Shown in pieces: positions 1 to 64,000 of a stretch of 64,000 bases of DNA. The position numbers and the translations under genes were made by a program. Positions within the stretch are counted from its first letter, which is position 1; each line of letters starts with the position of its first letter. Location: positions 62,001-126,000 of the forward strand of contig CAMPDV010000945.1 in the NCBI GenBank assembly GCA_946699065.1. The letters run 5' to 3'. Under the pieces are notes generated by a model. It did no database searches, was not told where the DNA came from, and saw only the letters and a list, made by a program, of their open reading frames with translations. Origin of the DNA: Loxodes magnus. Its lineage: Eukaryota; Ciliophora; Karyorelictea; Loxodida; Loxodidae.

Positions 1-501
1 TATATCTAATAGCATAAAACATAATAATTTCTATAATTAAGGTAATAATAATTAAGATTATATATTATATTTAATAAAAAGTAAAGCATAAGATAAAAGA
101 AAAACTTATTTTAACTAGTTAACTTTATTTAAATTATATTAGTTGTATTATCTAATTTCTACTATTCAGATACTCACTATATTTAGCAATTATAATAAAA
201 TGTCTTAATGAACTAAAGAAAAATTAAGTTTCTAATTATTTTAATAAATCTATTTGAAACTAAAATTAAGACAAGCTCTAATAACTATAAAAAGACTAGA
301 TTATATAATAAGAATAAAATAAAGCTAAAAAATTATTAATCAAAAATGTAATAATTTATCTGAATTAATTATAAGCCTTTAGCTTTAACTTAGTTACATG
401 TCTTTAAGATTTTAAGTCTAAGAATTATCTTTATTTATAAGGTATTTTAGTAGATAAAATTAAGGCTAAATTTTTAATAATGCTAGATGTTGCTGTTAGA
501 A
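1..501. repeat. Terminal direct repeat, left copy
   Basis: Bases 1-501 recur as bases 63500-64000, an offset of 63,499; every block I compared was identical. The match runs into both edges of the window, so its true length cannot be seen. It may reflect a circular or wrapped contig, a long-period tandem repeat, or an assembly overlap. It ends just inside the start of the 487-1116 gene. Confidence 0.95.
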
Positions 502-1116
502 AATAAAATTGTAGTTAGTTAAAATTATTCAGGATAAGCTAGCAGGACTAATATGATTAAAAACTAGATGATAATCTTAATTCCTAAAATCTAATAAAAT
601 GAGGAATTCATTAAATCGACCAAAATAAATTATACCTAAAAAATTAAAGAAAAGTAAAAACTATTTAAGTTAAAGCCGAAATTTGAGAAGGCAATTCTGA
701 AGAAATTTCCTTCAAAAGCTGAGAAGTTATATGAAGAAACTAATTAATAATTAAATTTTAGGAAAGATAAATAGCATAGAATTAAAAGATTACATGAGAG
801 GGACAAAAATAACGAAAATAATAATTTAGAGATAATTAAATTACTACAAAATTAAAAGAATACATAAATCTATTGAAAAGTTATTCTGTGTAATTTTCAG
901 CTAGATATCAGCACTAAAAGAAGAAAGAAATTTTAAATGCTGAATATTAACATGACTATGAATAGAAAACTAGAAAAAAAGGCTGAAAAACCTCAAAATC
1001 AAGTAATACAAGTTTAAAATGAGTAGAATTAGGATTCATTATATTACTGTAGAAATTCACAGAAAATAAATTAGCACAGGAATTAGCTCTATTTGCGACT
1101 TCTAAAGAAATTATGA
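487..1116 (+). CDS. Basic, Lys/Gln-rich protein of about 209 residues, function unknown
   Basis: Under the TAA/TAG=Gln, TGA=Trp code one frame runs from ATG (MLLLENKIVV) to a TGA at 1114-1116, exactly 210 codons. The protein is basic and helical (PSKAEKLYEE, LHERDKNNEN), with a YYC..H-type patch near the C-terminus that recalls, but does not complete, a zinc knuckle. A Trp codon TGA lies inside (residue run IYWKVIL). An alternative upstream ATG at 200 exists in another frame and looks less protein-like. It converges on the minus-strand region ending near 1130. No family recognised. Confidence 0.5.
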
Positions 1117-1129
1117 TAATTTTGAGTGT

Positions 1130-1830
1130 GTTTCTTTGGTTTATTTAAGCCTTTAGCGTTTTTCAAACCTAAATTTTAATTTAATTTTTCCTTTTTTTAT
1201 CAAAAAGCTAATTATGCATTTCTTTAATTCTTAAGTACTTCCCTTTCCAATTTGTACATTCTCATAGTTCTTCTATTTCTTAACATTGTAAGTTTTACAT
1301 TAAAAATCCCAACAGTTGAAGAAATATAATATCTTAAGAGTCTTAAGATATTAATATTTGTGAGCCAATGAAGACTAAATTATATTAATAGGTAATTATC
1401 TTCCAGTACCTATAGATATTTATTTACTTACTTAAAATTTTGACAATTCAGTTTTCTCTGATTTATTATAAACTTTAATCTCTTTATTAAAACTTTCTTA
1501 AATTGATGGATTCATTATTTTTACTATCTTAGCATTTAAGATTCTTATAGCTTTATGCTTCTAATCTTTCTAAATTTATAAATACTTACTCTTTTATTAT
1601 TTGAAGAATCATGCTATATAGATTGTCTTTCGTCTTTTTTATACATTATATTGTTCCATCTTTCATAAATTTTATTCTTCATTTTAGCTCTAATAGGATA
1701 TTTCAATAGGAATGTTTAGTTGTATATGTAAATATTCAGGCTAAATTCTTTTTGGAAAATAAAGTCTTCAAATATCTATTTCCTGCTTACTTGAAAAGCT
1801 TAAACCACCTCATTAAATTTTTAATAAATT
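1130..1830 (-). CDS. Unrecognised coding region, approximate limits
   Basis: On the minus strand the ciliate code gives a long coherent frame with normal charge balance, for example PSIQESFNKEIKVYNKSEKT and ENVQIGKGSTQELKK. The start is not fixed; good coding character is lost above about 1830-2000. It converges with the 487-1116 gene. I see no domain, signal peptide or membrane segment. Composition is the only evidence, so the limits are rough. Confidence 0.35.
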
Positions 1831-1949
1831 AAGATTTCACTGTAATGAAGGTTACTTATGAACTCTTTTCACAAGCTCTATTTTAATAAATAGACACTTA
1901 CATTTTTTAAATTTTTTAATTAAATTTATTAAAAAAGGAAAAGCTGAAC

Positions 1950-3660
1950 CTTAACTTACTAAAGCAAGGTAAATAATTATCTTCTTAATAAAAATTACTA
2001 AACTATCTTATTAGCTGTAGAGAATAAATGTTATTATAAGAGAGCTATAGAATCAGTTAAGTCTTCTATTTTTTGTGATATTATATTAAAAAGCAAGTTG
2101 TGACAGTTAGTATATAAGATTGAAAAAAGAGATTTAGTTCTTAATAGAATAATATAAACATTAGAAGTAGCAAGTGAAGATTAAGATAAGAACACTTTAA
2201 TACCCTTAATATGTACATTTATAACCTAATTGAAAAGAAACTTAAAGGCATAAATTTCAAGCTCCTCTTAGGATTCTTTGCATGGTATCATGCTGAAAAT
2301 CGAACCTTAAAAATAACAGAAATTAATTTGAAAGTTTTAAATTAAATTCAAGGATTTTATAATTGTGAAATCTCAATAGGCCGGAATATCAAGAACTCAA
2401 AAATTAAAAATAACTAAAAGGGAGTAGAAGTGGAAAAAGGAAAAGTTTAAGATCATAATATAGATATGAAATAATGTCTTAAGCTTACAAGTTAAATTTG
2501 ATTTATCTAATAATTTTTAATTTATTGAATTATTTAGAATAAGATCATTAGCTTGCTTGATTATCTTTCAAACATTATTTAAATTTAAATCTTCTAACCA
2601 TAAACATTAGATTCAAATAATAGTATCATCTTAATATAAATAAGGGTTTATTAAAATAATAATAATGAGACTCAAGTTTAGATAAAGAGAGTTAGTATAA
2701 TTTAAGGATAAGGAAAATAATAATTAGTAGACTATTAAACTAAAAGTACTTCTATTAATTAATATATTAATATATCTTCAATTTAATATACATCTTAATT
2801 AAATTAAAGAAAACTTCTTATTTCACTTTAATTTAAAAAAATTAACTGGGAACAATCAAAGTTTGAATCCCTTAGAAATTTTAATTAACATATTATCTGC
2901 GTCTAAACTAACTGAGAAGCTATTCCAAAATTAGAATTGGCGACTTAGCTTATTAAATAAGAGTGATTATGATAATTTGTAAATAAGAAAGTTTAAGTCA
3001 TAAATCTAAAAAAAATTAATAGATATTACAAAATTAAAATCTTAAGACTTTAAGGATTTACTGAAGCCATTGAAACTATTTTTATTTGAAAGAGAAAAAA
3101 TATTAATTGGGCAGAATAAGTATAAAGCACTATAAAATATTCGCTGAAAGTAAATTTAAGAAGTATAAAATAAGCAAGAAGAAAGTATTATAATATGATT
3201 AAATTTCATTTAGAGATTCAGAAAAATCTTCACAAAAAGAAAGGAATGCCTCATTAAATAATTTGCAAAAATGACAAAAAATAGATATAGAAAAATAATT
3301 TAAGACCATAAAAATGAGCTACAGCTTTCAATTCTATAAATGGAAAGAGAAAAATATAATTTAAAGAAAGATATTTAATGTAATAAAAAATATAGGAAAT
3401 AAGACAATTAAAATTAAATCAATCTAGAAAGCCAATTTTAATTTTCTCTAGTAAAATTCTGTTAGCATGTACTGATAGGAAATGACTGAGGGATTTTTAT
3501 CAACTATTTCACAAAATTATTTAAGATATCTTAAGTTTAAATTAGGATTATAAAACTTACCTTTGGATCTTGCAAAAACTGAAGAAATTTAAAAAGATAA
3601 ATGCCAGAATATAAAGTTTAAATTTAACTATATTTAAGTTATTATTCTTATCAATCTTTA
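1950..3660 (+). CDS. Gene P: helical, Lys/Gln-rich protein, function unknown
   Basis: One frame (codons such as TTA at 2011 and 2842) reads through about 570 codons with TAA/TAG as Gln and TGA as Trp, for example IQTLEVASEDQDKNT and LNPLEILINILSASKLTEK. Predicted largely alpha-helical; no catalytic motif seen. The start is uncertain, with no clear ATG in frame near 1950. From about 2490 on it is copied in inverted orientation at 18.99-17.91 kb; bases before 2490 are not, so the right copy lacks the N-terminal part. The gene is followed at 3690 by a GC-rich insertion that may have altered its 3' end. Confidence 0.5.
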
Positions 3661-3674
3661 AAATTTAAACTTTA

Positions 3675-4630
3675 TAAATAATAAATAAATTATATAAAAT
3701 GGTAGAAGGATTCAAGAAAGGCTTTTATACAACCTCCTAAAAAGGGGAGAGAAAGTAAGAACCCTCGTCTCTGACTGACGCGTCTTCTTCCTAGAAATAA
3801 TCCTCTTCTCAAAACCTTCAAGAATAATAGACTCAACTAGGAACTTCAAGATCAGCTTAAAAGATGGGATGAAAGCGCCAAAAGGCTACCTCGATGACAC
3901 CAACTGAAGAGGAAGGACCTATAAAGGTGCTGGAGACGCAAGAAGCAGCAGCCGTGCGAGAGTTTGCGATGCCACAGTTCCAGGAAGAACAGGCATAAAT
4001 TTTAGTCGCATTCTCTGACCTGAAGGAGGAAGTAAAGAAGCTACGATTAGAGAATAGAGCTCTAAAAAATCAAGTTACTGAGCTCAAGGAATGGAAAGAA
4101 AGCTTCTGGGAAGTCTACGATCGAGAGCAAAACACTTTCTTCAGGGAAATGGGATTGCTACAGCAGAGAACAACTGTGCTTGAAGAGAACAACAAGTAGC
4201 AACAGTAGACAATTCAAGATCCAATGGACATAGAAGGAGCTATTAATTTACCGAGGAATCCAGACAAGAAATGAATTAGGAACAAACCAATATGTTTTGT
4301 ATGCAAACAAACTGGACATAAATATAGACAATGTTAGAAATTGAGATTAATTAAATAATAGTACTAGAATAGAAAATAATAAGAAAAATAATAGTACTAA
4401 TATTAGGATAAGATTAGACGAGAATTCTGTAACTAATTTTATCCGTCAGGAGGTCAAATCTACAAACCGAAGTGGTATACAATCTAAGGCGACTGAAGAA
4501 AGAGTCCTGAAGGGAGCTGGTTCCAGCCAGGTTATCAAACTGGTCCTGTGAACACGAGGTTGAAAGTCCTCCAAGTTCACTAAACTCCAATTTAAACTTT
4601 TTAATTTTAATTTAATAAATAATAAATAAA
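3675..4630 (+). mobile_element. Insertion A: GC-rich retroposed element carrying a Gag-like gene, looks whole
   Basis: A 926 bp segment (3690-4615), clearly richer in GC than its surroundings, interrupts the left arm. It is flanked by 15 bp direct repeats TAAATAATAAATAAA (3675-3689 and 4616-4630), whereas the right arm has only one related copy between the matching flanks. That is the signature of an insertion with target-site duplication after the inverted duplication arose. It carries one long plus-strand gene and ends in an AT-rich tail. No terminal repeats of its own and no polymerase gene are visible. Likely young, because the target repeats are identical. Confidence 0.8.
3699..4578 (+). 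CDS. Gag-like coiled-coil protein with CCHC zinc knuckle (insertion A)
   Basis: From ATG at 3699 one frame gives a Ser/Thr/Gln-rich N-terminus (residues 1-95), a coiled coil (SDLKEEVKKLRLENRALKNQ), a short acidic linker (PMDIEG) and a CX2CX4HX4C knuckle, CFVCKQTGHKYRQC, at 4293-4334. A Gln-rich stretch and an aromatic C-terminal part (GGQIYKPKW, GSWFQPGYQTG) follow. Gag and LINE ORF1 proteins use such knuckles to bind nucleic acid. Several Gln residues are TAA/TAG and Trp residues are TGA (KKWIRN, GDWRKSP). There is no in-frame TGA at the end; the stop may be a TAA near 4579. The same architecture occurs at 35131-35988. The frame looks whole. Confidence 0.8.
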
Positions 4631-4666
4631 AGAAGCACTAAATAATTTATAACTACTAAATGCATT

Positions 4667-5013
4667 TAATTATAAGGAAATGCCTATAATTAAAAAGATG
4701 GTGGGAGCTGAGATTGACCTTCTGAATCATACTTTCTGGTTTTATGGCTAGGAACAAGTTCCTTTCCTGTCGCTGAGAAAGTCCCTGGTCAAAGTCAACC
4801 TTTGCAAGGGAACGCCTTCCTCTTGATTATCCACTCCTGGTAGGGGCTTGAAGACTGGCTGCCCATAGCGATGGAGCTCCCTGGCAGCTGCTTTTCGAAA
4901 GCAACAGGATATCCCCGTTATCCCATGAAGGGAGTGTTGGGGTCGTTAAACTGCAAGAAGTTGCAGTCCAAAAACTCTTTTAGTTTAAAATTAAATATAA
5001 TTATAAGGAAATG
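4667..5013. mobile_element. Insertion B: short GC-rich element with target-site duplication
   Basis: A 315 bp segment (4683-4997) near 50% GC sits between two copies of the 16 bp TAATTATAAGGAAATG (4667-4682 and 4998-5013). The right arm has the target once, near 17800-17810. Like insertion A it begins close to an AAAATGGTxG-type sequence and ends in an AT-rich tail resembling A's (AAACTC...TTTAGTTTAAA against AAACTCC...TTTAA), so the two may be moved by the same machinery. Too short to be autonomous. Confidence 0.75.
4690..4985 (-). CDS. Partial protein encoded in insertion B
   Basis: The minus strand of insertion B reads as a convincing Pro/Gly/Ser-rich protein fragment of about 100 residues, for example FNDPNTPFMGQRGYPVAFEK, SSSPYQEWIIKRK and KGWLWPGTFSATG. 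The style resembles the aromatic C-terminal part of the Gag-like proteins in this window, but no alignment is demonstrated. The plus strand of the same stretch is also open from an ATG at 4698 (MVGAEIDLLNHTFWFYG), and I cannot exclude it. Start and stop are not defined; probably a fragment. Confidence 0.4.
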
Positions 5014-5795
5014 TCTATAGCTAAAATAATAAAGTATTATAACTAAATAAAAGAAATTAATAATAAAATTAAAGTTAAAAATAATAGCATTAGTAAGCTT
5101 ATATATGTAATTTAACTAAGGCTTAATAACTAATATTAAGAAGCTTATTATTTTAAAATTAACTAATAAATTAAATATTCCTTTCTTAAGTTAATATAAT
5201 CAGAAGATATTTTATATTACTATTATCACTATTTATTTATTAAACGACATTTCCATTAAAATAATTGAATGAACTACATTAGCTGATAACTATCTTAAAA
5301 TATTAGAAAGATACTAAAGATTTTAAAATAAAATATATGAAACACTATGCTTGATACACAGCTAGAATAATTAAATAAAATAATGATAGATATAATCACT
5401 AATATAACTAATAATTATAAGTTTATTACCTATAGTATTTAAATAGTGTCTTAATTTCGGATGTAAGGTTGATTAATAGAATATACAAGTTAAGCCTTAA
5501 TTATTTATTTGGTTGGATCTTAAGAAAGAATTTAAATAAAAATAAGAAATACTTATAAATTTAGAATAACAAACTCAAAAATAAAACTTAGAATATTAAA
5601 ACCTAACTGGAGATTATTATTTCTATAGAGCTAAGATTTTCCTCTAACTTTAAGATTCTTTTTTATTTAAATATATTGATATATTTAAATAACTTTAATT
5701 ATCTCTTAACTTTAATTCTACTCTAAAAATTTGTTTTAGATGTAATCTAGCTTAATAACTTTTTTAATTCTAGTTAATTTGAAAATTTGAAAATC
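5014..5795. other. Intergenic AT-rich stretch of the left arm
   Basis: About 780 bases between insertion B and gene Q. They align in inverted orientation with 17000-17800, so they belong to the duplicated unit. Poly-A/T blocks dominate and no frame has normal charge balance. No RNA gene or repeat is visible. Confidence 0.6.
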
Positions 5796-5799
5796 AAAT

Positions 5800-8190
5800 A
5801 AAATGGATAATATTCAAATTACAACATAGAAACACTAATCCACAGAAAAAGTAAAGACTAGTTACCATTTAGAAAATAAAGAAGAGACGAAAGATTAATT
5901 TTTCTATTTAAAATAACTAAATTGATAGAAGATTCTTATTCTAAATCCCATCTGATACTTTTACTCTGAAAAATACTAATCTATGTTAAAGAGCTAAAGC
6001 TAAAATAGAATTAGGAAATCTAGAGACGTCTTCAGTGTATTTTTTTCTAATTAATCAAAGATTAAGTTAGCTTTGATCTCCAAGAAAAAAAAGCATCTCC
6101 TTAAAAGCATAATATTTATAGTATTAAAGACTAGGAAAGCAATAGATTGGAACTATCTTTCGATCAAAAAATACTTAAAGGCAAAAGGTGATAAGACCTA
6201 AAAATTTTAATAAGAGTAGAATTAGTTTAATGACTTTAAGATGAGTTAATTTAAGCAGACATTGGAATATGCCTAAAATTTTATCAAATATGATGATTTT
6301 TTTAGAAGAGTCTGAATTATATAACAATTAAAATTCTGAAAAGCACTAAGACTTCCTGTTGATACTAAATTAAATTGAATCACATTAAGTTCATAAAAAA
6401 GTAGAGTTTATGCATATCTTATAGCAAATAAAGAATACTGTAAGTATTATTTATTTAGATGCTACAAAATATCTATTTATTCTAGAACTTGCCAAGCTTT
6501 TTGATCTTAAAAGTTCAAGAGGCTTAGTTCTATAGCAAGCTGAAAAAAACAGAAGCTATTCAATCTAAAAAGCAATTATGAGCTTAAAAATGGATTCTAA
6601 GAGATAATTTATAGCTTGGCAACAAAATTTGAAGTATATTAAAAGAGATATTAGAAAAAATTTATTTCCTTTTAAAAAATCGACTTCCAATATTTTTATT
6701 TCCTCACTAGTAGGTTTGTAATTTTTAGCATAATATATAAATAGTTATAATTAATAAAGTAGAGAAAAATAAGCAAAGTAATAAAGTAGTAGCACTCGAC
6801 ATTAAAAGTTCAAAGAAAAAGTGAAGCTTATAAGTTTCTTAGTCAATTCTTAAGAATTAAAAAAAACAGATTCATGGTGCTGAGTGCGAGGGATAGAATT
6901 GATAAGTTTTAATTACTTTAGAACATTTGCCGAATGTAAATAGTCCCTTTATAAGTAGGAAGAAGAAAGCTTTGTTGTTTCTTTAATAAACTAAGAAACA
7001 TCTGGATTATTAATTTAGCATAAAAAATAAAATTTCCTTGAATAAATATTGAATAGTCAGTAGCTTTAAAAAACACCCGAAGATTAAATTAAATTAAATT
7101 GGAGCTTTTAGCATTCAAACTCAAACGTGCGCTAATTTTATGCAAGTTAATTCTAAGAAATTTTGATTGACATTCCTTAGAAATAAAAGTACAAAAAAAG
7201 AAAGCAATTGATTAGACTCTGAATAATTTAGTAGAGCTTGAGAGCTTATATATTAAAATATATCTGAAATTTTACTCAAAAATGACATAAATAACGAAAA
7301 ATTTCACTAAGAGGAAAGTGTATGGTTTCTAGCATATCCTGATAGAAAATCTAAACAAGTGCTCAGTTAACTATAAGAATATTATAGCATTATAAATGAT
7401 GAAAATTAGGACAAATTTAATAAAGGCTGCAGAAAAAACTACTTATCAAAAAATTAGAAACGACAAATTGAGAGATTTTTAAATGACTCCAACTAAAATA
7501 GAGACTTAATTACTAGGAGTGGAAAAAAATTAGCCACTAACTTTATAAAATATTTGAAGAACTCAAGAAGATTAGTAGTCATTAAATCCAATCAAAAGCG
7601 TAAAAAAAATCCTATGAAATAATAAAATCATATTATCCTGGCGCTTCGGTTTTTATAGGGAACTCAGGGATACTTTAGAAAAGTTTTTCAAGAAATTAAC
7701 GAAGCATATTATTTAATCAAATAGATCTTATCAAATATTTTGATTATTTCAGCCTAGCTTAAATTAAATCAAGGGCTGAAAATTGCAAAATTAGTTTATT
7801 ATTTTGATTGGATAAAGCAAAAGTTTACAAAAGAAATAATAATCATACCAAAATTTTTAAAAATAATTTTTAAAGTTGCTTGAGAACTTCTCAAAAGATT
7901 AATTGAAAGCAATTTTTTGCTTTTGCTAACATTTAGAATTAATTCCTGGATAAATTAATACGAGTATATCAAAACAAATAATAAAATCTTGATTAGCTAT
8001 AAATGATAAATGAATAATTCTATCTTTGCTGATTATTTAAGCTAAATTATTATATAATTTTAAATTATAGACTGATTGAGTTGCCAATTATTCAAATTAT
8101 CTTCAAAACTAAATCTATATGGCTTATTAATAATGCTTCTTCTTAATTATACTTATAACAACATTACAGTTCATCATTTACTAGTCTCTA
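5800..8190 (+). CDS. Gene Q (left copy): large helical protein, function unknown, frame changes
   Basis: Coding is supported by comparison with the inverted copy. Around 6020-6050 all four of the first differences between the copies are synonymous in one frame (protein RKSRDVFSVF), and around 5870-5930 the differences fall in third positions of another frame (RRDERLI.LFKITKLIEDSY). The protein is Lys/Ile/Gln-rich and alpha-helical; I recognise no domain. The best frame changes near 5960 and again later (for example at an A8 run near 6860), where the right copy has different run lengths, so this copy is decayed or carries indel errors. An ATG at 5803 lies in a competing frame. The end is uncertain. 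Confidence 0.45.
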
Positions 8191-10439: not shown

Positions 10440-10900
10440 AGTTAAGAATTTTAAATAGATTTAGCATATATAGATATATAATACTACCTATAACTAAACA
10501 CAGTACCTAACTAATTATATTATTACTTCATTCCTTAATATCTTTATACATACACCCTTCTTATTACATTATTATATACTACTATATTCCAAATTACAAT
10601 CTATCATAAACTTAAGATTAACACATCTTTATTATACTGCTCTCATTATCATCTAGAATCTTACCAATACATTATAAATCTCTAAGTCTTCAAAATGACA
10701 TCTATTAAAATATTAAAAGGTATAGATAGTTTAATTATTGTAAGCTTACTATTATGAAGCTATTATTTTGCTTATTTACATTTCTTTCTAAAATTAAGAT
10801 TTCTATTTGTGCTTCTTAGTTCAACTTATATCATTAAGATTTATACCTCTTCGTAGTATAGAGAGATTACCTACTAAGATAACTCTAGACTGTATATCAT
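10440..10900. other. AT-rich intergenic region upstream of gene R
   Basis: Poly-A/T and ATATAT blocks with scattered TACC/TAAC words; no supported gene. It lies upstream of gene R and would contain its promoter. No recognisable element. Confidence 0.5.
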
Positions 10901-11506
10901 AGTGATAGAATGTCTTAATGATAGATTGAGAAAGAAATTTGCCTAGTTTTAGGTAAAAACTATCTTCATAAAATGAGGTAATTATAAGGAAGATAAAAGA
11001 AACGTTTCAATTCCTTAGATCTATCATTACGTTATAAGGATAATAAATTCTAATATGAATATTCCTTGAACTTAAAGTAAGTATTTATCTCGGCTACAGA
11101 AAATAAGACAATGTTAAAGTGAACTTAAATATAGTGTGTAATAATTTAACTGGAGTTTCTAAAGAAATACAGACTAATTACTAAAACATAGTAAATCCAG
11201 CTAATGTCTTTATAAAGCCGTCAGTTATTTCTAATTCAAATTAGTAAATTATCATTTTCTTGATAGAACAGTCCTGTCCATATTTGATAGGCTGTTTCCT
11301 TCTTTGCCACTACTTTATTAATATAAGATGATGCTTAAATACATGAGTGAGGAAACTACTAAATATTCATTACCGAGGAATAAAAAGTGATTAAATAAAC
11401 AGATTAAATATTTATTCTTGTTAAAGAACTCGGCCATTTTAAAACTTAATAGAGAGATCTCAAAAATGATAAACACTAGACACTTTATTACTTTAAAGTA
11501 CGACAT
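10900..11506 (-). CDS. Possible gene T, hydrophobic protein, unrecognised
   Basis: An ATG at 11506 opens a hydrophobic frame without any TAA, TAG or TGA for 62 codons (MSYFKVIKCLVFIIFEISLL). Further along, another frame becomes more protein-like (CSIKKMIIYQFELEITDGFI, LETPVKLLHTIFK). It could be a small membrane protein or the start of a longer decayed gene. Support is composition only. Confidence 0.3.
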
Positions 11507-11816
11507 TTTTATTTAGAAGGATATTATCCCTTTAAATATCAATTTTTATACTTATTAAAATTCAATCTAAATTCACTTATAATAAGATAAGAAAGTGTAG
11601 CATTAAATAATATTCACTGAACTTTATAAATCCTACACTTTAAAAAGTTTATCGATTCATTTTTTCAAAAATCAGATTGTCTTTATAAAGTTTATTTTTT
11701 CAGATGATTGATATGAGACCTTAAAATAAAAATAAACTAATATGACGTTATAATTATTTTCTAAGGAATATAGCTTCTTAAGTAACTACTACATTAGGAA
11801 AAATAGGAAAGAAATT

Positions 11817-16970: not shown

Positions 16971-16999
16971 ATTTTATTTGATTTTCAAATGCTTAAAAT

Positions 17000-48293: not shown

Positions 48294-48529
48294 TAATATA
48301 GACAGTAAATGAATTTTATAACTTTAATAAAGAGAAAGGTGAGTTTAAGATTTACTATATTTAAAAGGATGTAAGTCTTAAACAATAATAGGGAGTAAGT
48401 ATTAAGTTATAATATTTAGATGGTAAGTTAGTATTTAATAATTATTTAGCATGTAAGTTTCATTTCAAATGTTTCGCGATAAGATTGTAAGTATCGATGT
48501 TAATAAATTTCGTTTAAAGGGAGTAAGTT

Positions 48530-50290: not shown

Positions 50291-50299
50291 TGTATTTTA

Positions 50300-51250: not shown

Positions 51251-51259
51251 AAAATTTTT

Positions 51260-54200
51260 ATGTCTGCAAATATTTTTATCTAAGAAAATCATTTAAAATT
51301 TAAATTTTTTTTAGAAAAGATGAAAAATAAAGATTTTTTTTTATCGTTTTAAATTTCTTACTTGTTTTTTTTTTAAATGCAATTTTTAGCATAATCATCT
51401 TCAAAATATCTAGAATGGTTTTCAATGAGTTTTAAATTTACATAAAATATATTTTGCTTACCTAATTTTAAAAAGAATTCGAATGAGAAATAATAATATT
51501 CTTAGATTTTTTATTTATTTTTTTTAAATAAATTAAGATCTAGTTTAAAAAAAATACATATTCTGTTTTTGAAAATAAAAAAAATAAAAATTTATAAATT
51601 TTAAAAGATTTAATAATTAAGTAAATAGAAAAAACTGTATCTGAAAAAGAAGTTAAAAACTAAAGCATAAAAAATCTGAACCTATCTAAAATAAAAATAT
51701 TGCTCTTACTTAATTTAAATTGAAAATATTCAGAACTAAATACAAAAAGAACTTTATATCGAAAATAAAAAATAAAACAAAATTAGAATCTTAGTTGAAG
51801 TAAAAATAAAGACATTAGTTGTTATATATATAGCTATTTAAAAATAAGATTTTGTTAATCTTTAAAAACGCTTAGAAAATTTTAGATATAGTTACCTTAA
51901 AAAAATAGTTTTTAAATTCGTCATAAAAAAATTAACATTTAACTATAAACCACTAAGTTAAAGGTAAAAAATCAGAACGCCCTGAATTTAATTGAAATTT
52001 TTCATTAAAATATAATGTATCTTAATTAAATCTATTATATCTAATATATTATAAAACATCGTTAAAGATTTAAATTTACTTAATTCTCAAAACAAATAAA
52101 TTACTTAATAAAATGTTCTAAATTTCTTATAATGGACTTAGATGAGAGTAACATATTAAAAATCCTAAATGTAATAGAAACTATTGATTTAATCATAGTT
52201 TAAGCATAAAATTATTTTAATTTAATTTTTATAAAAAATAATATATCTATTTTTGATAAAGGTAGATTAATAGAAGAAAATTAGTTCACAGTTAAATTCT
52301 CTAAGGTAAATATTTAATAATCTTTTTATCTTTTAATCAAGATTCTTATGTACTAAATTTTTACAATTTAAATATTTGAGTGAAATATAAATTCCAATTT
52401 ATTTATAAAAGTCTTACTCTACTACTGTAATGTTTTAAAACTTAATAGAGACATATAATTAAAAAAATTAGCAAATAAAATCTTTAAATTCATTATAAAA
52501 CTTTAACCTATAATTAAAAAAAAGGCAATCAATGAATATTCATAGGAAATTTTATTAACATTTAATTAATCAGAAGTACATTTTTTATAATAATCATTTA
52601 TGTATTCTTTTTATCGAATAGTATTACAGAAATAGTAATAATGAAAACATAACCTCGAAAAGTATTTTCTCATATTAATTTTATAAATTTATTTAAAATA
52701 GCTATAAATAAATATTATTAAATCATAAATAAAACATTTAATTAATACTATCTAAAATATTATTAAACTCTATTTAAATAAATTTAATAATAGTAATAAC
52801 AAATAATATAAAAGAAGTCTCTAAATAAATAGTATATTAAAAATAATTTTCGGACCAAATTCATCAAAATTAAATGAAATTATAAAAAAAGAGTATTTAA
52901 CAAAATTTCGATAAATTATTAAAAAATAAATTATATTTTGATCAGAATTTATAGAATTAATTTTAAGTAAAACTAAGATCAATTTTTATTTAAATCTATA
53001 ACTTAAAATCTTAATCTAATTTAAAACTTCGTTTTAATATATAAACTAATTTAATAAAAAAAGAAAAAAATCTTTATTGCAAATAATAAGAATTAAATTA
53101 TTCTAATTATTTAATAAACTGATAATCGAAAATAATTTTCTTTATCTTAGATAAGATCAAATAAATTTCGCAAAAAAATTAGTATCTAAAATTTGTTGAA
53201 GAAGATAAAAAAAAGTAAATGAAAAAAAATAATTAGCAAAAAAATTACATAAATTTAATAAAATTTTCCTTTGCGTATGTACTTTTTTTTAAATTGTAAT
53301 AAAATACTGCTATTTTTTCTAAAAGATTATTTTTGACATGCTCGTATCTTTAAAATTTTATAAATATTATTAAAACATTTTAATAATTTTTAAATTTTTT
53401 CTACATAGGTAAATTTTAGACGTTCTGACCTCTGTCACTTTTTAGATATTATTAAAAATGTTTAAAATTAAAATAAATTTTTTTTCTGCTTTCTATTTAT
53501 ATAGTTTATCTAAAGATCAATTTTAAATTAAAAAAATTATTACATCATAATTTTTCTTCTGAAATTAGTTTATAAATTATCAAACTTCTAAATTAATAAA
53601 GAAAATATCGACATCACGTATATTTTTTTTAATAATATCGAAAAGAAGCAATAAGAATTATTTATATATTATTTATTACTGAAAAGGAAATGAAAGTAAA
53701 TCAAAGTTAAAAAAACTGTAAAAGCATACAAAATTATAAAATGCATATTTTTTTTTTATTGTAAAAAATTTAATAAAAAATTTACAAATTCTTGAGAAAG
53801 TAAGAATAGTTTGCTTTTAAGTTTATTTTTAAATTTTAGTATAAAGATAGCAGAATACTATTTTAGGGACATTTATTTATAAAATATTTTGATTGAGCCT
53901 TATTAGCTCATATTATTTATTTAAACTAGAAAATTCTTCTTGCTTAGTAAACAATAATATAAATGTATTCAAAGATATTCTATTTATAAGAGATATTAAA
54001 TTTATTTAAGAAATTACATTTGAAGTAAACGCGGTACTTTTTTTTTCATGGAACAACTCTCAGTTTTTAAGGCACATTACAAATGACATAAATGTTTCAC
54101 GAATGAAACCTTTATTAAAATGGATATCTGTTAAACTTAAAATGAAGTTATAAAATTAATTATTTGAAAAATTCTCTTAGTAAAACTAAACATAGTTGAA

Positions 54201-54350
54201 TTAGATAAATAGTAAAAGTGATTTTTTGATTTGAGTACGGAGCATAAAAAAAAGTCTCAGCTTTTTATCATAAAAGAAACTCTTTTTAGTTAAAAACGTT
54301 CGAATAGGCAATCAATAGAAGATAAAAAATTGCAATTTTTTTAATGTAAT
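51260..54350. other. Extremely AT-rich DNA, no genes seen
   Basis: Mostly A and T with few G or C. No frame with normal amino-acid balance, no hairpin with GC stem, no tandem order until 54358. Probably non-coding spacer. Confidence 0.5.
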
Positions 54351-54357
54351 TTTAAAT

Positions 54358-57118
54358 AATTTAAAAAATTAAATTTATTTATAATAAATATTTTAGTTAT
54401 TTTAATATCATTTAAGATTCTTATTTACACTTTATTTAAACTTAAAATGAGAAAAAGCATTTTTATCTTTGATAGTAACAAAAATTCTAATAGGTAATTC
54501 TTAATCTCTTTTTTCATCTTGAGAAATTAATAATTACAAATTTAGAAAAAAACTATTTTAAAAAATAAATGCTTCCTAATTTTTATTTGATATAAATGCA
54601 AAATTATTTTTATAAAATTTCTTGTATTTTGATAAATTATTTCTTCGAACTTTTAAATTAAAAAATACAGTAAATAAAATTAATGAATTACTTTTATTTA
54701 AATCCAATTAAAAGAGATTTTAAATAACTTAAATTCAAAGAATAAAAATTTTATTTTTTTAAACAAATAAATACATTATTTTCACAATATTTTTATGTAA
54801 TAAAAAACATATTAATATTTATAAATAATAAGAAAAGTATTTTTTAAACAAACAATTACAAATGTTTAACAAAATCTTAAATATGGAATAACAAAAAAGT
54901 TTATCTTAGTTTAATTATAAATCTTTTTCCAATTTTTATAAAATTTGAAAAACATATTTAAAATGTGAAATTTTTTAAATTTAAAGAAAAATAATCATCA
55001 TTTTAATTTTTATTAAATTATTTTTAATGATTAAAGAAATCTTATTAAGCAATAATTATAAAAAATAAATTATAATTTATCACTAAGATAGAAAAATACT
55101 GAAAATTCAAAAAAGCATTTAAAAAAATTAAAAAAACATAAAAATTTATAGATAAAAATGTAAGAAAATATTGAAGGATGAATATTTTAACCTGAATATT
55201 CTTTAGTTATTTTAATAAAATTTATAAGCAAAAGATATTTCATAAAATAATTATGAAGGTAACAAATAATTTAGAAAACATTAATTTAGTTAAATTTAAA
55301 AAATTAAATTTATTTATAATAAATATTTTAGTTATTTTAATATCATTTAAGATTCTTATTTACACTTTATTTAAACTTAAAATGAGAAAAAGCATTTTTA
55401 TCTTTGATAGTAACAAAAATTCTAATAGGTAATTCTTAATCTCTTTTTTCATCTTGAGAAATTAATAATTACAAATTTAGAAAAAAACTATTTTAAAAAA
55501 TAAATGCTTCCTAATTTTTATTTGATATAAATGCAAAATTATTTTTATAAAATTTCTTGTATTTTGATAAATTATTTCTTCGAACTTTTAAATTAAAAAA
55601 TACAGTAAATAAAATTAATGAATTACTTTTATTTAAATCCAATTAAAAGAGATTTTAAATAACTTAAATTCAAAGAATAAAAATTTTATTTTTTTAAACA
55701 AATAAATACATTATTTTCACAATATTTTTATGTAATAAAAAACATATTAATATTTATAAATAATAAGAAAAGTATTTTTTAAACAAACAATTACAAATGT
55801 TTAACAAAATCTTAAATATGGAATAACAAAAAAGTTTATCTTAGTTTAATTATAAATCTTTTTCCAATTTTTATAAAATTTGAAAAACATATTTAAAATG
55901 TGAAATTTTTTAAATTTAAAGAAAAATAATCATCATTTTAATTTTTATTAAATTATTTTTAATGATTAAAGAAATCTTATTAAGCAATAATTATAAAAAA
56001 TAAATTATAATTTATCACTAAGATAGAAAAATACTGAAAATTCAAAAAAGCATTTAAAAAAATTAAAAAAACATAAAAATTTATAGATAAAAATGTAAGA
56101 AAATATTGAAGGATGAATATTTTAACCTGAATATTCTTTAGTTATTTTAATAAAATTTATAAGCAAAAGATATTTCATAAAATAATTATGAAGGTAACAA
56201 ATAATTTAGAAAACATTAATTTAGTTAAATTTAAAAAATTAAATTTATTTATAATAAATATTTTAGTTATTTTAATATCATTTAAGATTCTTATTTACAC
56301 TTTATTTAAACTTAAAATGAGAAAAAGCATTTTTATCTTTGATAGTAACAAAAATTCTAATAGGTAATTCTTAATCTCTTTTTTCATCTTGAGAAATTAA
56401 TAATTACAAATTTAGAAAAAAACTATTTTAAAAAATAAATGCTTCCTAATTTTTATTTGATATAAATGCAAAATTATTTTTATAAAATTTCTTGTATTTT
56501 GATAAATTATTTCTTCGAACTTTTAAATTAAAAAATACAGTAAATAAAATTAATGAATTACTTTTATTTAAATCCAATTAAAAGAGATTTTAAATAACTT
56601 AAATTCAAAGAATAAAAATTTTATTTTTTTAAACAAATAAATACATTATTTTCACAATATTTTTATGTAATAAAAAACATATTAATATTTATAAATAATA
56701 AGAAAAGTATTTTTTAAACAAACAATTACAAATGTTTAACAAAATCTTAAATATGGAATAACAAAAAAGTTTATCTTAGTTTAATTATAAATCTTTTTCC
56801 AATTTTTATAAAATTTGAAAAACATATTTAAAATGTGAAATTTTTTAAATTTAAAGAAAAATAATCATCATTTTAATTTTTATTAAATTATTTTTAATGA
56901 TTAAAGAAATCTTATTAAGCAATAATTATAAAAAATAAATTATAATTTATCACTAAGATAGAAAAATACTGAAAATTCAAAAAAGCATTTAAAAAAATTA
57001 AAAAAACATAAAAATTTATAGATAAAAATGTAAGAAAATATTGAAGGATGAATATTTTAACCTGAATATTCTTTAGTTATTTTAATAAAATTTATAAGCA
57101 AAAGATATTTCATAAAAT
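54358..57118. repeat. Tandem triplication of a 935 bp unit
   Basis: The block starting TTAAAAAATTAAATTTATTT occurs at 54361, 55296 and 56231, exactly 935 bp apart. The copies are identical in every stretch I compared, and the third ends at 57118. The unit is over 80% AT and has no convincing frame. The homogeneity means very recent amplification, gene conversion, or an assembly repeat. Confidence 0.95.
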
Positions 57119-58365
57119 TATTTTTACTTATTCGTAAATTTCTGGTTTAATGCCAATAATTATACATTTATGTCTTAATATTTAAATATTTAATATCTTA
57201 TAGTTTATTATTATGCCTTATTATTTAAACTTTTAATAGTGAATTAGAATTTTAAAATATTAATTTTAAAAAATCAAAATAATTTATTTTAATGATTAAT
57301 ATTTATTTTATAATTTTTAAGTTAAATGTGTGAATTTTTAATATAATTGTTTATCTATATATAAATTATTAATATGATAGAAGAATTAAATATAATCTTC
57401 TACCATTTATAATATTGAGGGATTTTTTAGTTAAAATATGTTTTTAAATATGAGAAATAAAGTAATTTAATTTTCGTTAAATATTTTATTTAAGTATAAT
57501 TTTCCGATTATTAACAATTTAATAATAATAACTTTTTTAAATTTCTTTAACTGACAATGATAAAATAATTAATTTTGCATAATTATAATTATAATTAGTT
57601 TAATTAAATTTTTAGTTATAAATTAAAAATTTATACTTAACTTTAAAATATAATAAAAGTTAGTTAAGATTATTATTATAATTACTTATATTATTTAGAT
57701 CTAAAACTTATACATTAATTAATTTTATAATTATTTATAATACTTTATTAATTTAATTTTATACAGTTATCTCTAAAGATTTGTTTACTATATTTACTTT
57801 TTAATTCACTAAATTATTGTTTTAATTATGGTAGTCATTAATTATCAAATGTGAACCTTTTTATTTTATAATCTAGTAATCAAATGCTTTTTGTTAACCA
57901 ATTATTAAAAATTCATATCAAAATTATGAAAAGCTTCCTTTTTATTAATTTTCAATTGATACAAAGATAATTAATTCTACCTAAACATATAATTATTGAA
58001 TAATTTTAGATTTTTGATATAGTGTTTTTAATATTAATATCTTACTATTATAAAGTATTATTTTAATTATATTTTGTTATCATTTAGAATTTTATATTAT
58101 TAAAGTCATAAAGCTAATGTTTCGTTTGCTTTACTTAGAACTTCAATTCCTTTTAGATATTTCTTCCTTTATATTATCTATGTTTTATTAATTATAGTTA
58201 AATAAAGAGTTCTTTAAATGGCTTTATTAGCAATTTAATTAGTTTTTAGAATTTAAATTTTAATATGTATTTATAAAAATAAATGGTATAAATTAAAGCT
58301 ATTTATTAATAATATTTACTTTAATAAAAGAGTTATTGTAAGAAACTGTTTATTTATATTTAAAA
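57119..58365. other. AT-rich intergenic stretch
   Basis: From the end of the 935 bp array to the 3' end of the coiled-coil gene. No supported feature. Confidence 0.5.
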
Positions 58366-58369
58366 TAAA

Positions 58370-59704
58370 ATAATTTTAGACATCTATAACTGCAAGAATT
58401 GCTTCCTTCAATGAGACTCTAATAAATGTTTTTAATGTTTTTTAATAATAATCTTGATCTCATCAATTTTTAATTATTCTTGTTTCAGTTTCTCTTTTAT
58501 GTCTTCCTTTTTTACTTTTTCCATTTCATATAAATCTAAACTTTTTGACAAGTGAAAACGATTTTTAAGGGTAAAAGGAGGTTTATAACTTTTTGTAGGA
58601 GTTGTATGTGGAATTTCTGATCGGAAAAGGCAGGGATGGGAGGAGTAGGCAATGACAAGAGAAAACAATTTTTAGTTTTAAAATATTTCATCAAAATTAA
58701 GGTTTATTTATTGAAGTATGTTTCTTTTTTTCACACTTTTTAGATTTAGAATTTTAGAATTTTTTCAATTACATATTCAGATTTTTTTAATCTCTTTTTT
58801 AGTTATAATACTGTCTCAAATCTCTTGCAGCTTACTTTCAGAATATTTTTTTAGCCCTTTATTTTTTTTATTGGCTTTATTTTCTGATTAGTTTTTTCAT
58901 AAATTTTTCCGATTTTAAAACTTTTAAGACATATAGCTTTTTTTGATTTTAAATTTTTCTCTTTGTTTTTTTAAGCGCTAATGAGTAAGTACTTCTTTTC
59001 TTTAAAGTAATTAATTTATTTTTTTGAGTATTAACTTTTTTTATATTTTAAATCGATTTCACTCTTCCTTCGTGACTACTGAAATAACTTTTATTTAAAT
59101 ACATTTTAGGGTTTTACTTCTATTTCTTCTTCGTTTTTTTTTAATCTTTCTCTGTTCATTTAAGTGTTTATCTTTTTTATTAAATCCTTTATCGCAGAAA
59201 CTTTTTCTCTTTATTTTCTCAGTTGCCTTTTTTTCCTCCTTATTCTTATTCTTATGTTATTTTTCTTTTTCTTTTGTACTTATTTGATCATAGAATTTTT
59301 TGCAGTTTCTTCACTCAGATTTCTTTCGAATCACGAAAGTTCATTTCTTCACTTTTTTTTTGTTTTATCTTCTTTTTCTTTTACTTATTTTTTTTATAGA
59401 ATGTTACTTTCTGCGCTTGTCTAGATTCTTTTTAGTTTTTCCAGTCTATTTTTTTGATCTTTTTGTTTTTTAGCTAGTTTTTTTTTTCGGAATTTTTTAT
59501 TATGTTTTTTAAATTTTTTTCATGATGGTCTTAGTTCTCTTTCTCAAGTCATAAGATCAATTTTATTCCTTCCACTAGGCTGAGTTTTACCATTCGCTTC
59601 TCATTATCCTTTCTCAGTTTCCTAACCTCTGCTTGGTGGTTTATCACTATTTAATCAGCCACTCCAAGCTCATCTGGCTAGAATTTTTAATTTCGGACAC
59701 ACAT
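58370..59704 (-). CDS. Basic coiled-coil protein, possibly microtubule-associated
   Basis: An ATG at 59704 starts MCVRNQKFQPDELGVADQIV, followed by NHQAEVRKLRKDNEKRMVKL and a very Lys-rich coiled coil (KNRLEKLKRIQTSAESNILQ). The C-terminal part reads AYSSHPCLFRSEIPHTTPTK, YKPPFTLKNRFHLSKSLDLY and EMEKVKKEDIKEKLKQEQEQ. The PPF...NRF pattern before a charged helix recalls TPX2-type microtubule-binding motifs, but this is only a resemblance. At least one frame change lies in the A-rich part. Its start overlaps the end of the NACHT frame by a different frame; which gene owns 59690-59704 is unclear. Confidence 0.45.
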
Positions 59705-62560
59705 ATGCCCGATAGATCCAAAGATGTAAATTAGTAATTCATCCGATTCAATATCGTTATACTATTAGTTGCCACTATTTATAAAGAAACATTAGTACTG
59801 GACATTCTCACTATCTCCAATATATTTTATTACACACTTGAATTATTATTTGCAGAATTTGAATTATAAATCTCTCCCACAAACTATAGTATCTCCAGAT
59901 TGTCCACTATCAAAAATTTGTTTATATTGTGAACCTCTATTGCTTATGCCTTAGCGGATGAAACTAAATCTATAATATTTTTTGCCACATAGTAATCTCT
60001 TATCAATGCATGAATAAACTCAAACCTCTTTTTATTATTCTATTCCTTTGTCTATATCAAACGCCCTATATGGTTTTAATCGTCCGTAAACTACTCTATC
60101 CACTTTTGATTCACTTCATCAAAGCTTGATATCTCCACCGAACCCTGTAACATCTCCCATGCCGCATTCACTTAGATAGTTTCAAACAACTTTATTTACT
60201 AGTTGAGCACCTTACTTTTTAAACCCTGATTTTACAATTTTTCTTAGGTTCTTTTGTTTCACTAAACTATGAAAATCTCATATATTCTAGACTTTTAAAC
60301 TACTTAACCACTTTTTAAATAATCTAATATCTCTTCCTCACTCAAACAAATATATAGCAGAAAGGGATTACTGATAATTTCATCAGACCAGGTATTCTCT
60401 ATATTAATGCCATCATCTCTTATATTTAAGATGCTTCCACTTGACTTGCACTTTATTATTACTGGTTCTTCTTAACTAGGACTTTTTCTATATATTTTTC
60501 TATCTAGCGATATCGAATGGCTTTATATACAGTTCCTATAACTCTTATAATTAAACTCTTTCGCTACTGTATGGTGAAAAATAATGTTGGTAATTTTTTC
60601 TTTTAATACATAATTTACCCTACATGTTATTATATATTTTGCCTGAGGATACTTTTGCTTTAATTTATTACTACTTATAATAGCCTTGCATTCTCCCAAC
60701 TCATCATACGCGTCAAATAAGAACAGAATCTTTCTAAATTTCAATGTCTCATTTCTTTCTATTTAATAATTATCTAAAGCAGATTCTATTAATTTGTTTT
60801 CGAATGCTTTTATAGTTGGGAGATACACATATATGGATAAGTATTCATGTTTCTAGTCTAGATATTTTAAGGCTAAAATCTTCAGGAACAAGGACTTTCC
60901 AGAACCGGAATCTCCCAGAAGTAATAATCCTGTCTTAGTATCGTTTTCTAAAAATTTCAAAATTTCAAGGTCAAGATCATCCTCAGCTTATGAATTAGGA
61001 TTAGGAGCGCAAAGTAAGCTTACGTAATATTCTTGCTTCTCCGAAACCTCTTCTTTTAAAGTCCTTATCATATTTTAATATATACTACTGCTAATGCCCT
61101 TAAATGCCAACCAATTCTCTTCTATTGTTTAAGTAAATAAAACAAAATGCTCTGGATCCATTAATAATTCTAGAATTATCTAACGCTCTTTTACATTCTT
61201 GCTTAAGTTCTCTTTTTTTAACTTAAATATTCTTTCCTTATAAGTGCAAGCTATTTGGTTCTTTTCTAAAGTCAATTCCAAAAATGTCTTCATTGCATAG
61301 TACCTTATCTACTAATTCTGTACTAGCTTACGGGTTTTTTATCATGTGTTATAGAAGATAGCATGCTCTAAATCTTAAGTCTATTTTTCTTTCAAAACAA
61401 TATCTCAAAATTGGTAAAAAATTTATTTTGAGTATTGTCTAAATAAATCACATGCAAGAGCATCTAAGACTCGTAATCTAATAATCTTTTTATAGTTGAG
61501 CTTCTAATTTACCCAACCTTTTCCTCATAAGAAAAACTCCTTTATAATAGAGATCGCTTCTGACCCTATAACTCCAACTTCAAACGTCAAGGCAATTATT
61601 CATTAAGCAACTTTTAAAATTTTACATAGAATTCCAAAATATTCGGTTTCTTTGCTATCTGGAATATTCTCCAGAATCATCAAACTAAATCTTAAGTACA
61701 AATCTGGTTCTGGACCTCCAATCCTATTTTTATTTTTATTTACTAACTTTAAGCTATCATTTATTTTTAAAATGAGCTCTTCTTTTGTTTTTTCATTTAT
61801 AAAGGAGTTTTACTCGTTCTTCTAAAGCAACACAGCCAATAACTCAGGAAGATTTCGTACAAGCTACTCCTTCAAGAGCTAAGACCATCCTTCAGCATAC
61901 TTATGGGAAATAATTTCAATGAATTGATTTATAAGAACTAATGGATCATTGATATTGGCAAACTTATTCTTTTGAATTGTTTGAATTCCTTGTAGAACTT
62001 TAACCATCTTTTATTCATTCAAGCCTTCTTTTAAGAGCTACAATCCTTCTTGATAATCTTTTGTTCCTTATTACCAAAAATTTGTTCATTTTCTTGATAT
62101 TTCTAACTTTTATCATTGCTTAACCCTTATTTTGATACTGGCTAATTACTCTACTTATCTTTATTTTTTTAATCTTTAAATTTTTTATCCTGAGAACCAC
62201 AACAATCTCAACTTTTAGCTTCATTCTTTTCTAAATATTTAGCTTATCTCTTTTATTAGAAATAAGCTTAATTTTTTAATCTATAAGATTCATTTAATTA
62301 TTCTAGCACTTTGTAATTACATGTCTTTTTGAATCAGCAAAATAAGAAATGTTTTGAAGGAAGTTATAATATTCAAATTGTTGAGATTACTATAAAGAGA
62401 TCTCTATCTAATTATTTGGAACTTGTTCATCTTATGAATCTAGGAAAGTTTAACTCTCTTTATGATTCTTGTATTCATATTCATTCATTTAATTACTTGA
62501 AGTTTAGCGTTCATCCCTTTCTAGTGTCTTTTGATGATTATTAATCGTCTTCATAAAGAA
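59690..62560 (-). CDS. NACHT-domain NTPase (STAND family), NLR-like
   Basis: N-terminal polar region (SNDKSQKYQENEQIFGNKEQ), a helical part (VLQGIQTIQKNKFANINDPL to ILELLMDPEHFVLF), then NACHT: Walker A LLLLGDSGSGKSLFLKILAL (about 60890-60920), Walker B RKILFLFDAYDELGE, sensor IITCRVNY, and the winged-helix end FEFIHALIRDYYVAKNI. The end reads TNSITILNRMNYQFTSLDLS, the lead-in that in ciliate NACHT proteins usually precedes pentapeptide or WD40 repeats, which are absent here. A single frame runs about 2.3 kb with one apparent base loss near 62060 (A-run). STAND NTPases oligomerise as signalling switches. Start uncertain; C-terminus probably lost. Confidence 0.8.
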
Positions 62561-62569
62561 AGGAGAGCC

Positions 62570-62930
62570 AAATCGGATTAAAAGAACATGTGACTTTAAG
62601 AATTCATTTTTCTAGCTTTATTACTGAAAGCCTTGATAGTTTCTCAGAACTTAACTGAAAAGATAGCAATTCGAATTGCAAATTGCAGTAAACATTTTAT
62701 TATTTTAAAGACTAAATTCTCTTAAATACCTTAAATTATATAAAACATTAAATACAATCAATTAATATTAGCTTTATCATCTTTAACTGTAAAAGCTAAT
62801 TGTCTAAATAATTAATAATTAAATCATTTTATACTCTAACTCTATAAACCTAAAACTAATTAAAGTCAGCTAGTTTTAAATTAAGTCTATTAAATAGATT
62901 TAATTCTTAAATATAGAAAAAAGAAAAAGA
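62570..62930. other. Intergenic stretch upstream of the NACHT gene
   Basis: AT-rich; would hold the divergent promoters of the NACHT gene and the small plus-strand ORF. No motif recognised. Confidence 0.4.
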
Positions 62931-62935
62931 ATCTA

Positions 62936-63190
62936 ATGAATCACAATTAAAAAGCTAATAAGTAGATAAATAGCAAAGTATCAAATTGAAAAACAGCTAA
63001 TTTATACGTGGTAAGCATTAAATTTATTAATTTAATAGGCTTTGCTGATAGCATCTTATTTGATATCCAAGTAACTTATAAAATAGCCAGATATTTACTT
63101 ATTTTTGACATAGCTTAAAATAAATCTAATAATTAAGTCTAAAATCTTTTATTTTCTATTTTACTGAGAGTATTTTAAGTTTCTAACTGA
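62936..63190 (+). CDS. Small protein candidate of 84 residues
   Basis: ATG at 62936 to TGA at 63188-63190, exactly 85 codons: MNHNQKANKQINSKVSNWKT, then a hydrophobic part (VVSIKFINLIGFADSILFDI) and a polar tail. One Trp is TGA inside the frame. It could be a single-pass membrane protein; support is the ATG-to-TGA frame and composition only. Confidence 0.35.
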
Positions 63191-63199
63191 AAAATATAA

Positions 63200-63499
63200 T
63201 TAAGATATTAATTGTAATACTAATTGAAGAAATTCTACATAATTAAAAATAAATAGTTCGTTTCAAAACAAATTCTTCCCTAAAAAAGAAAAATCTAAAG
63301 AAGACAGTCTTTTAATAAGCTCAAAAAATAGATTTAAACTAAAAAAGCTTTTTATTAGTTAAAGAAGGAAAATGATTACTATTCAATATATTATTTTCAC
63401 TAAAATTTCTTAATCATAAAAATTAAATAAATAAGCAAAAGAAGCTTATTATTCTTATTAAGAAAGCTTTTAAATAAAGTTTTAATAATAGTAGAATCA
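63200..63499. other. AT-rich intergenic stretch
   Basis: Between the small ORF and the terminal repeat. A/T-rich with a few AAGCTT words; no feature recognised. Confidence 0.4.
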
Positions 63500-64000
63500 T
63501 ATATCTAATAGCATAAAACATAATAATTTCTATAATTAAGGTAATAATAATTAAGATTATATATTATATTTAATAAAAAGTAAAGCATAAGATAAAAGAA
63601 AAACTTATTTTAACTAGTTAACTTTATTTAAATTATATTAGTTGTATTATCTAATTTCTACTATTCAGATACTCACTATATTTAGCAATTATAATAAAAT
63701 GTCTTAATGAACTAAAGAAAAATTAAGTTTCTAATTATTTTAATAAATCTATTTGAAACTAAAATTAAGACAAGCTCTAATAACTATAAAAAGACTAGAT
63801 TATATAATAAGAATAAAATAAAGCTAAAAAATTATTAATCAAAAATGTAATAATTTATCTGAATTAATTATAAGCCTTTAGCTTTAACTTAGTTACATGT
63901 CTTTAAGATTTTAAGTCTAAGAATTATCTTTATTTATAAGGTATTTTAGTAGATAAAATTAAGGCTAAATTTTTAATAATGCTAGATGTTGCTGTTAGAA
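63500..64000. repeat. Terminal direct repeat, right copy
   Basis: Copy of bases 1-501 at an offset of 63,499. The preceding bases (AGTAGAATCA) cannot be compared with anything because the window begins at base 1. If the contig is circular, the gene at 487-1116 lies downstream of this point again. Confidence 0.95.

Follow-up and report, generated by a model that had tools for sequence, protein, structure and literature searches.

A 64-kb window of probable ciliate DNA in which TAA, TAG and TGA appear to be read as Gln, Gln and Trp

Genetic codes in which all three standard stop codons can also be read as sense are rare but already described: they correspond to NCBI translation tables 27 and 28 and are known from Condylostoma, from Amoebophrya sp. 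ex Karlodinium veneficum and, above all, from karyorelict ciliates. In the model put forward in PMC4967479, the ribosome by default translates these codons and is made to terminate at them only close to the poly(A) tail. UGA may be decoded by the near-cognate tRNA-Trp(CCA), a tRNA that in some ciliates has a 4-bp anticodon stem (PMC13092985). For Loxodes and other karyorelicts, UGA has been assigned as the stop codon and UAR (UAA and UAG) as Gln (PMC6935857). Loxodes magnus uses table 27 and has a GC content of 33.5% in coding sequences and 18.6% in 3' untranslated regions; its introns have a modal length of 17 bases, 93% of them being no longer than 25 bases, and its genome holds about 2,700 RVT_1 and 1,200 Exo_endo_phos_2 copies and two families of long interspersed nuclear elements (LINEs) of 5-6 kb (PMC11441545). 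The stretch of DNA analysed here, 64,000 bases long and called the window below, carries a LINE, a kinase-like sequence, a gene for a RING and ubiquitin-like protein (RING-UBL) and a NACHT-like frame, all of which contain in-frame standard stop codons.

Within the conserved domains of the window, in-frame TAA, TAG and TGA behave on the whole as Gln, Gln and Trp. The preferred explanation, to which we give roughly two chances in three, is that the window represents nuclear DNA from a protist whose code is ambiguous, UAA and UAG standing for Gln and intragenic UGA for Trp, and that this protist is most likely a Loxodes-like karyorelict using table 27, a code that also has UGA as its sole terminator, recognised near the poly(A) tail. 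By LINE type and base composition, such a karyorelict fits best. TAA as Gln is well supported; TGA as Trp is supported, with less certainty than the TAR codons (TAA and TAG), the main doubt being a table 6 code combined with dead genes; and TAG as Gln is supported more weakly. Following the published models, UAR would be read by tRNA-Gln species with UUA and CUA anticodons and UGA by the near-cognate tRNA-Trp(CCA), while the release factor eRF1 would win only close to the transcript end. ARAGORN and Rfam, run over the window, detected no suppressor tRNA; the sole tRNA is a tRNA-Glu (TTC) at 39960-40032 on the plus strand.

Under the standard code the window is nearly empty. The initial annotation had stated that no standard-code frame exceeds 95 codons, and indeed the longest frame starting with ATG, GTG or TTG (table 11) has 95 aa; since just 8 frames reach 75 aa, its statement that standard annotation would find the region gene-free is right in effect. 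The longest stop-to-stop stretch has 133 codons, barely more than the maximum of 130 codons (mean 98) for the longest stop-free stretch in 60 Markov shuffles of the window, so there is little coding signal under this code. The GC content of the whole window is 23.5%.

Translation with TAA and TAG as Gln and TGA as Trp, as the initial annotation had proposed, yields instead a series of Pfam matches that run across the in-frame stop codons, and these matches, together with the scoring of alternative codes, support the proposal. The search covered the plus strand outside 10500-12000, 14700-22900, 28200-33000, 35000-47100 and 48500-64000, and the minus strand outside 1-8000, 23100-28000, 33300-34800, 48500-58498 and 62700-64000, taking in the LINE frame only at 41698-47100 (-) and one frame only at 19500-19800 (-). 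All seven matches counted contain in-frame stop codons rather than lying between them, NACHT having only two. The predicted reverse transcriptase with a YxDD motif is present as RVT_1 (E=2.9e-27), with YTDD and with 8 TAA, 1 TAG and 5 TGA in 257 codons; the predicted kinase matches PF00069 (E=1.4e-35) with 6, 5 and 4, respectively, in 213 codons; and the predicted ubiquitin-like domain matches PF00240 above the Pfam cut-off (E=2e-6) with 3, 3 and 0 in 68 codons. The corresponding counts are 2, 4 and 0 in 41 codons for the RING finger, 1, 1 and 0 in 133 codons for NACHT, 6, 0 and 0 in 121 codons for Exo_endo_phos_2, and 7, 0 and 1 in 178 codons for Exo_endo_phos. The two TGA codons that had been placed at Trp sites of the kinase, 19859-19857 and 19652-19650, both lie opposite Trp of MARK4 in an alignment with stop codons masked as X. 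A NACHT NTPase had been named as well; a match is seen, but a weak one, at 25.9 bits against a Pfam cut-off of 26.7.

The meaning of the codons was also approached by rescoring the same DNA under alternative meanings of TAR, TAG and TGA, using a selection of the 20 residues. For TAR in RVT_1, where 12 residues were compared, Gln scores 99.6 bits, followed by R (92.0), K (91.5), A (91.1), E (90.7), S (90.7), H (90.6), T (90.5), N (90.4), masking as X (88.4), L (87.1), Y (85.5) and D (84.9), so that the eleven other residues all fall below Gln. In the ubiquitin domain Gln is again first (Q 27.9, E 25.6, K 25.1, R 23.7, Y 19.9), while the kinase hardly separates Gln from Glu (Q 123.4, E 122.7, K 120.7, X 113.4, Y 110.4). 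TAG alone, scored in the kinase with six residues, also gives Gln the highest value (Q 123.4, K 121.1, E 121.0, R 118.9, Y 115.1, L 114.0), 5.7 bits above X; the single TAG in RVT_1 is neutral (X 100.1, Q 99.6). For TGA, Trp leads in RVT_1 (W 99.6, L 97.2, C 96.4, R 95.1, X 94.2, K 92.5) and in the kinase (W 123.4, Y 119.1, F 118.5, C 115.4, X 112.8), where R, L, S and G each score below W too; none of the residues compared with Trp in the two domains, C, R, L and K in the former and C, R, Y, F, L, S and G in the latter, reaches its score. Over five counted stretches with 3,225 codons, there are 147 TAA, 65 TAG, 84 CAA, 29 CAG, 42 TGA and 13 TGG, a sample of which the LINE makes up more than half, in which the extent of the NACHT frame is uncertain and to which the RING-UBL gene contributes no TGA.

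The largest coding feature is the LINE, a non-LTR (long terminal repeat) retrotransposon whose frame extends over 41999-47008 on the minus strand, both ends being approximate. Its 1670 codons include 82 TAA, 15 TAG and 28 TGA in frame, and only 3 TGG. A CCHC knuckle (46151-46192) lies in the N-terminal part, followed by an APE-type endonuclease matching Exo_endo_phos and Exo_endo_phos_2 in Pfam (44828-45424), the RVT_1 domain (43247-44017) and a C-terminal Cys-His knuckle (42428-42481), all in a common frame. The best solved matches of the reverse transcriptase are L1 ORF2p and R2 proteins, and the Gln of its GFKQGC motif is encoded by TAA (43597-43595). Base composition favours the LINE frame in 16 of the 17 300-base bins between 42001 and 47100. 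TGA accounts for 28 of the 31 Trp codons over the whole frame and for 18 of 19 from the endonuclease to the knuckle, a region in which base composition and domain matches point to the same frame and no frame break is seen.

A second, decayed copy of the LINE has its N-terminal and endonuclease parts at 26426-28118 (+) and its reverse transcriptase-proximal part inverted in place beside the endonuclease part, at 28155-29027 (-). The two copies were compared over five stretches with stop codons masked as X, 525 aligned codons in all, two of the stretches overlapping by about 8 codons, and against 2000 shuffles; one stretch, taken from an alignment of 646 codons made with Gln and Trp already read in, was used without its poorly aligned upstream part. 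The same sense residue is found at 208 of the 525 codons, about 40%, and substitutions number 230, 164 and 294 at codon positions 1, 2 and 3. Among the 63 cells that partner a TAR codon, 18 hold TAR and 13 hold CAR (CAA or CAG), 4.8 and 4.5 times the expectation. The 13 cells opposite TGA hold TGA six times (in three columns), TGG once and otherwise I, I, L, F, N and R; TGA-TGA pairing stands at 37 times the expectation. None of the shuffles reached the observed TAR-CAR, TAR-TAR or TGA-TGA values, and 56 of the 2000 reached that for TGA-TGG.

Several observations weigh against the ambiguous code, or at least against parts of it. Some of the profiles prefer other residues by small amounts: the RING finger scores 25.1 bits with TAG as Lys and 24.4 with Gln, Exo_endo_phos_2 43.2 with TAR as Asn and 43.0 with Gln, Exo_endo_phos 37.4 with Asn and 37.2 with Gln, and also 39.1 with TGA as Leu and 37.2 with Trp, while PK_Tyr (38.2 and 37.6) and nSTAND5 (22.8 and 21.8) prefer Glu to Gln. 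In alignments to the best single matches, with stops as X, 3 of 14 TAR codons of the reverse transcriptase stand opposite Gln of L1 ORF2p, including that of the RQGC motif, and none of its 6 TGA codons stands opposite Trp, the partners being K, I, L, F, A and Y; in the kinase, 1 of 10 aligned TAR codons is opposite Gln of MARK4 and 2 of 4 TGA codons are opposite Trp, the other two facing Arg and Cys. Such single alignments are thinner support than profiles. One LINE bin (45601-45900), located after the CCHC and ahead of the endonuclease, favours another frame, so that the LINE may comprise two open reading frames. A pair of gag-like fragments, each with a CCHC motif, lies at 3918-4475 (+; CCHC at 4293) and 35281-35841 (-; CCHC at 35424), which with the LINE knuckle at 46192 (-) completes the three CCHC motifs listed in the initial annotation; this pair, compared over one stretch, shows no TAR-CAR excess, its 1 cell being reached by 1640 of the 2000 shuffles. 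Finally, TGA makes up 1.3% of codons in the window, against 0.120% in Parduczia and 0.042% in Condylostoma magnum (PMC4967479).

The kinase adds to these doubts. It is MARK-like and lies at 19491-20647 on the minus strand, but a single slip near 20285 divides it between two frames, and NFG stands in place of the DFG motif; neither feature appears in the initial annotation. GT..AG candidates for a micro-intron behind the slip were listed and judged by eye, and none restored the expected spacing. The sequence may represent a pseudogene.

The RING-UBL gene (47250-48266, +) lies next to the LINE on the opposite strand. Its 339 codons include 53 TAR and zero TGA, an absence with a chance of 0.0076 under a Markov model, and comprise a RING finger (zf-RING_UBOX, just below cut-off) at 47268-47390 and the ubiquitin-like domain at 48057-48260, with six in-frame TAR codons. 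Alone among the genes of the window it shows no sign of decay or of mobility, and it lacks TGA, as expected for an organism using table 6, which leaves a residual doubt for TGA alone. Its frame reaches no TGA before 48882. The gene would end either at a TAA TAA near 48290 or, if a 37-base GT..AG candidate intron read by eye at 48265-48301 is spliced out, at the TGA of 48310-48312; the sole possible TGA stop requires an intron longer than the Loxodes mode of 17, which weighs against the preferred explanation. From the end of this gene onwards, 29 GTAAGT hexamers are found at 48265-49530 (+), 26 of them between 48371 and 49229 at spacings of 24-60 bases, with regular 35-base and 32-base arrays; over the whole plus strand, a TAG lies 17-43 bases beyond 16 of the 46 hexamers of this kind, an arrangement that resembles tiny introns. 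The bin 48001-50000 has a GC skew of +0.54.

The least unlikely of the alternatives, which still seems improbable to us, is a Tetrahymena-like ciliate using table 6, in which TAR is Gln and TGA the sole stop, so that the LINE, kinase and NACHT frames would be dead and their TGA codons derived from TGG. The absence of TGA from a RING-UBL frame so rich in TAR fits this, as do the frame slip and NFG of the kinase, the lack of Trp partners for TGA in the best L1 alignment and the low GC content of the window. Against it stand the 18 TGA among 19 Trp codons in a LINE region without a visible frame break, the three aligned TGA columns common to two LINE copies that are only about 40% identical, and the top scores of TGA as Trp in both RVT_1 and Pkinase.

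Slightly more doubtful is an undescribed lineage in which UGA is the main Trp codon and reassignment has gone beyond the described ambiguous codes, the DNA being a 63.5-kb circle such as an excised or extrachromosomal ciliate molecule. The 42 TGA against 13 TGG, and a TGA share about ten times that of Parduczia and thirty times that of C. magnum, speak for it; the comparison values come from those two species, and the share in the window may be ordinary for Loxodes.

A Condylostoma-type code (table 28), which lets each of the three codons act as a terminator as well, is a little less probable again. It has identical sense meanings and would allow the RING-UBL gene to end at the TAA TAA near 48290 with no need of an intron, but the rarity of UGA in C. 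magnum (PMC4967479) contrasts with its frequency here. An origin from Amoebophrya sp. ex Karlodinium veneficum, or from another syndinean with the same assignments, is very improbable: the inferred code is the same (PMC6394959, PMC12005148), but there all fourteen alignments of dynein heavy chains show a strong preference for UGG rather than UGA, whereas TGA dominates here, and 2.0 of 2.1 Mb of retroelement length there is LTR, whereas a LINE is found here.

A measure of mutation in the window is provided by an interspersed element with two inverted copies (2499-7884 and 18980-14858, 80-86% identical), the first of which is broken by a GC-richer stretch with the gag-like CCHC fragment. In the part tested for coding (4998-7884 against 17806-14858), the copies are 82% identical, with 509 substitutions lacking codon phase and 42 gap events; at this 18% divergence a gap occurs once in every 12 substitutions, and 134 of 454 G columns show a G/A difference. 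Repeat-induced point mutation (RIP) is commonly indicated by a TpA/ApT ratio above 0.89 and a (CpA+TpG)/(ApC+GpT) ratio below 1.03. That standard-code genes were wrecked by mutation, as pseudogenes or through RIP-like C-to-T hypermutation, and so imitate recoding to Gln and Trp, is hardly credible. In its favour, one transition is enough to turn CAA into TAA, CAG into TAG or TGG into TGA, so that column identity alone cannot exclude decay, and TpA/ApT (1.05 in the window, 0.94 in the LINE) lies above its cut-off and does not oppose RIP. Against it, the other index (1.09 and 1.24) is on the non-RIP side, the substitutions of the repeat pair divide into 267 transitions and 242 transversions, the LINE frame is kept with substitutions favouring codon position 3, and the RING-UBL frame still scores as RING and ubiquitin despite its TAR codons. 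For decay to turn almost all TGG into TGA, the sequence would have had to change much more and to lose its frame many times, so that dead standard-code genes fit poorly. A code with UAR as Glu, as in Blastocrithidia (table 31), disagrees with the scores of RVT_1, where Gln leads Glu by 8.9 bits, and of the ubiquitin domain, and is close in the kinase alone (0.7 bits).

Among the remaining features, the NACHT/STAND-like frame occupies 59605-62100 on the minus strand, an extent set by eye, with 832 codons that include 27 TAA, 17 TAG and 8 TGA; the match itself (60526-60924) is its sole scored part, and its bins do not all favour one frame by base composition. About three near-identical 935-base tandem copies with a GC content of 11-15% are found at 54358-57122, a 37-base tandem array of about 20 copies with 93% matches at 30563-31297, and diverged direct repeats of about 80-170 bases, roughly 420-480 bases apart, at 50315-51226. 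The two ends of the window, 1-501 and 63500-64000, are identical over 501 bases, the first 60 of which are otherwise absent from the plus strand; these ends suggest a circular or tandem source with a period of 63,499 bases. Viral contigs were searched for relatives with an exact 36-mer and twice at the protein level, and genome contigs once at the protein level, and none was found; one viral protein scan used Gln/Trp patterns and was probably blind to recoded genes, and the other two protein scans (one viral, one of genome contigs) used a 50-residue stretch without recoded codons as query.

If the ambiguous code is accepted, the window offers a checkable example from within such a genome, in which a region near-empty by standard annotation, and a mobile element residing in it, also carry the code. 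Should UGA truly be the majority Trp codon, the source would make a good test organism for position-dependent termination where UGA is common.

Compared with known systems, the window shares with Blastocrithidia the reassignment of all three stop codons and UGA as Trp, and differs from that nonstop code in UAR, which is Glu there (PMC12153298). The same three sense meanings are found in C. magnum with table 28, where all three codons also terminate and UGA is rare (PMC4967479). LINE-1 and R2 non-LTR retrotransposons likewise combine CCHC, endonuclease and reverse transcriptase; the element in the window differs in using a code that leaves no codon free to serve purely as a stop. Karyorelicts using table 27, Loxodes magnus (PMC11441545) and Parduczia (PMC4967479), likewise read TAA and TAG as Gln and TGA as Trp inside genes. 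The likeness to Loxodes extends to abundant LINEs with endonuclease and reverse transcriptase, to tandem repeats and to a coding GC content above that of the flanks (PMC11441545), the coding frames of the window having 29-33% GC and its low-GC bins 13-20%; and the frame with RVT_1 and Exo_endo_phos_2 described here, of about 5.0 kb, agrees in size with the 5-6 kb LINE families of that ciliate.

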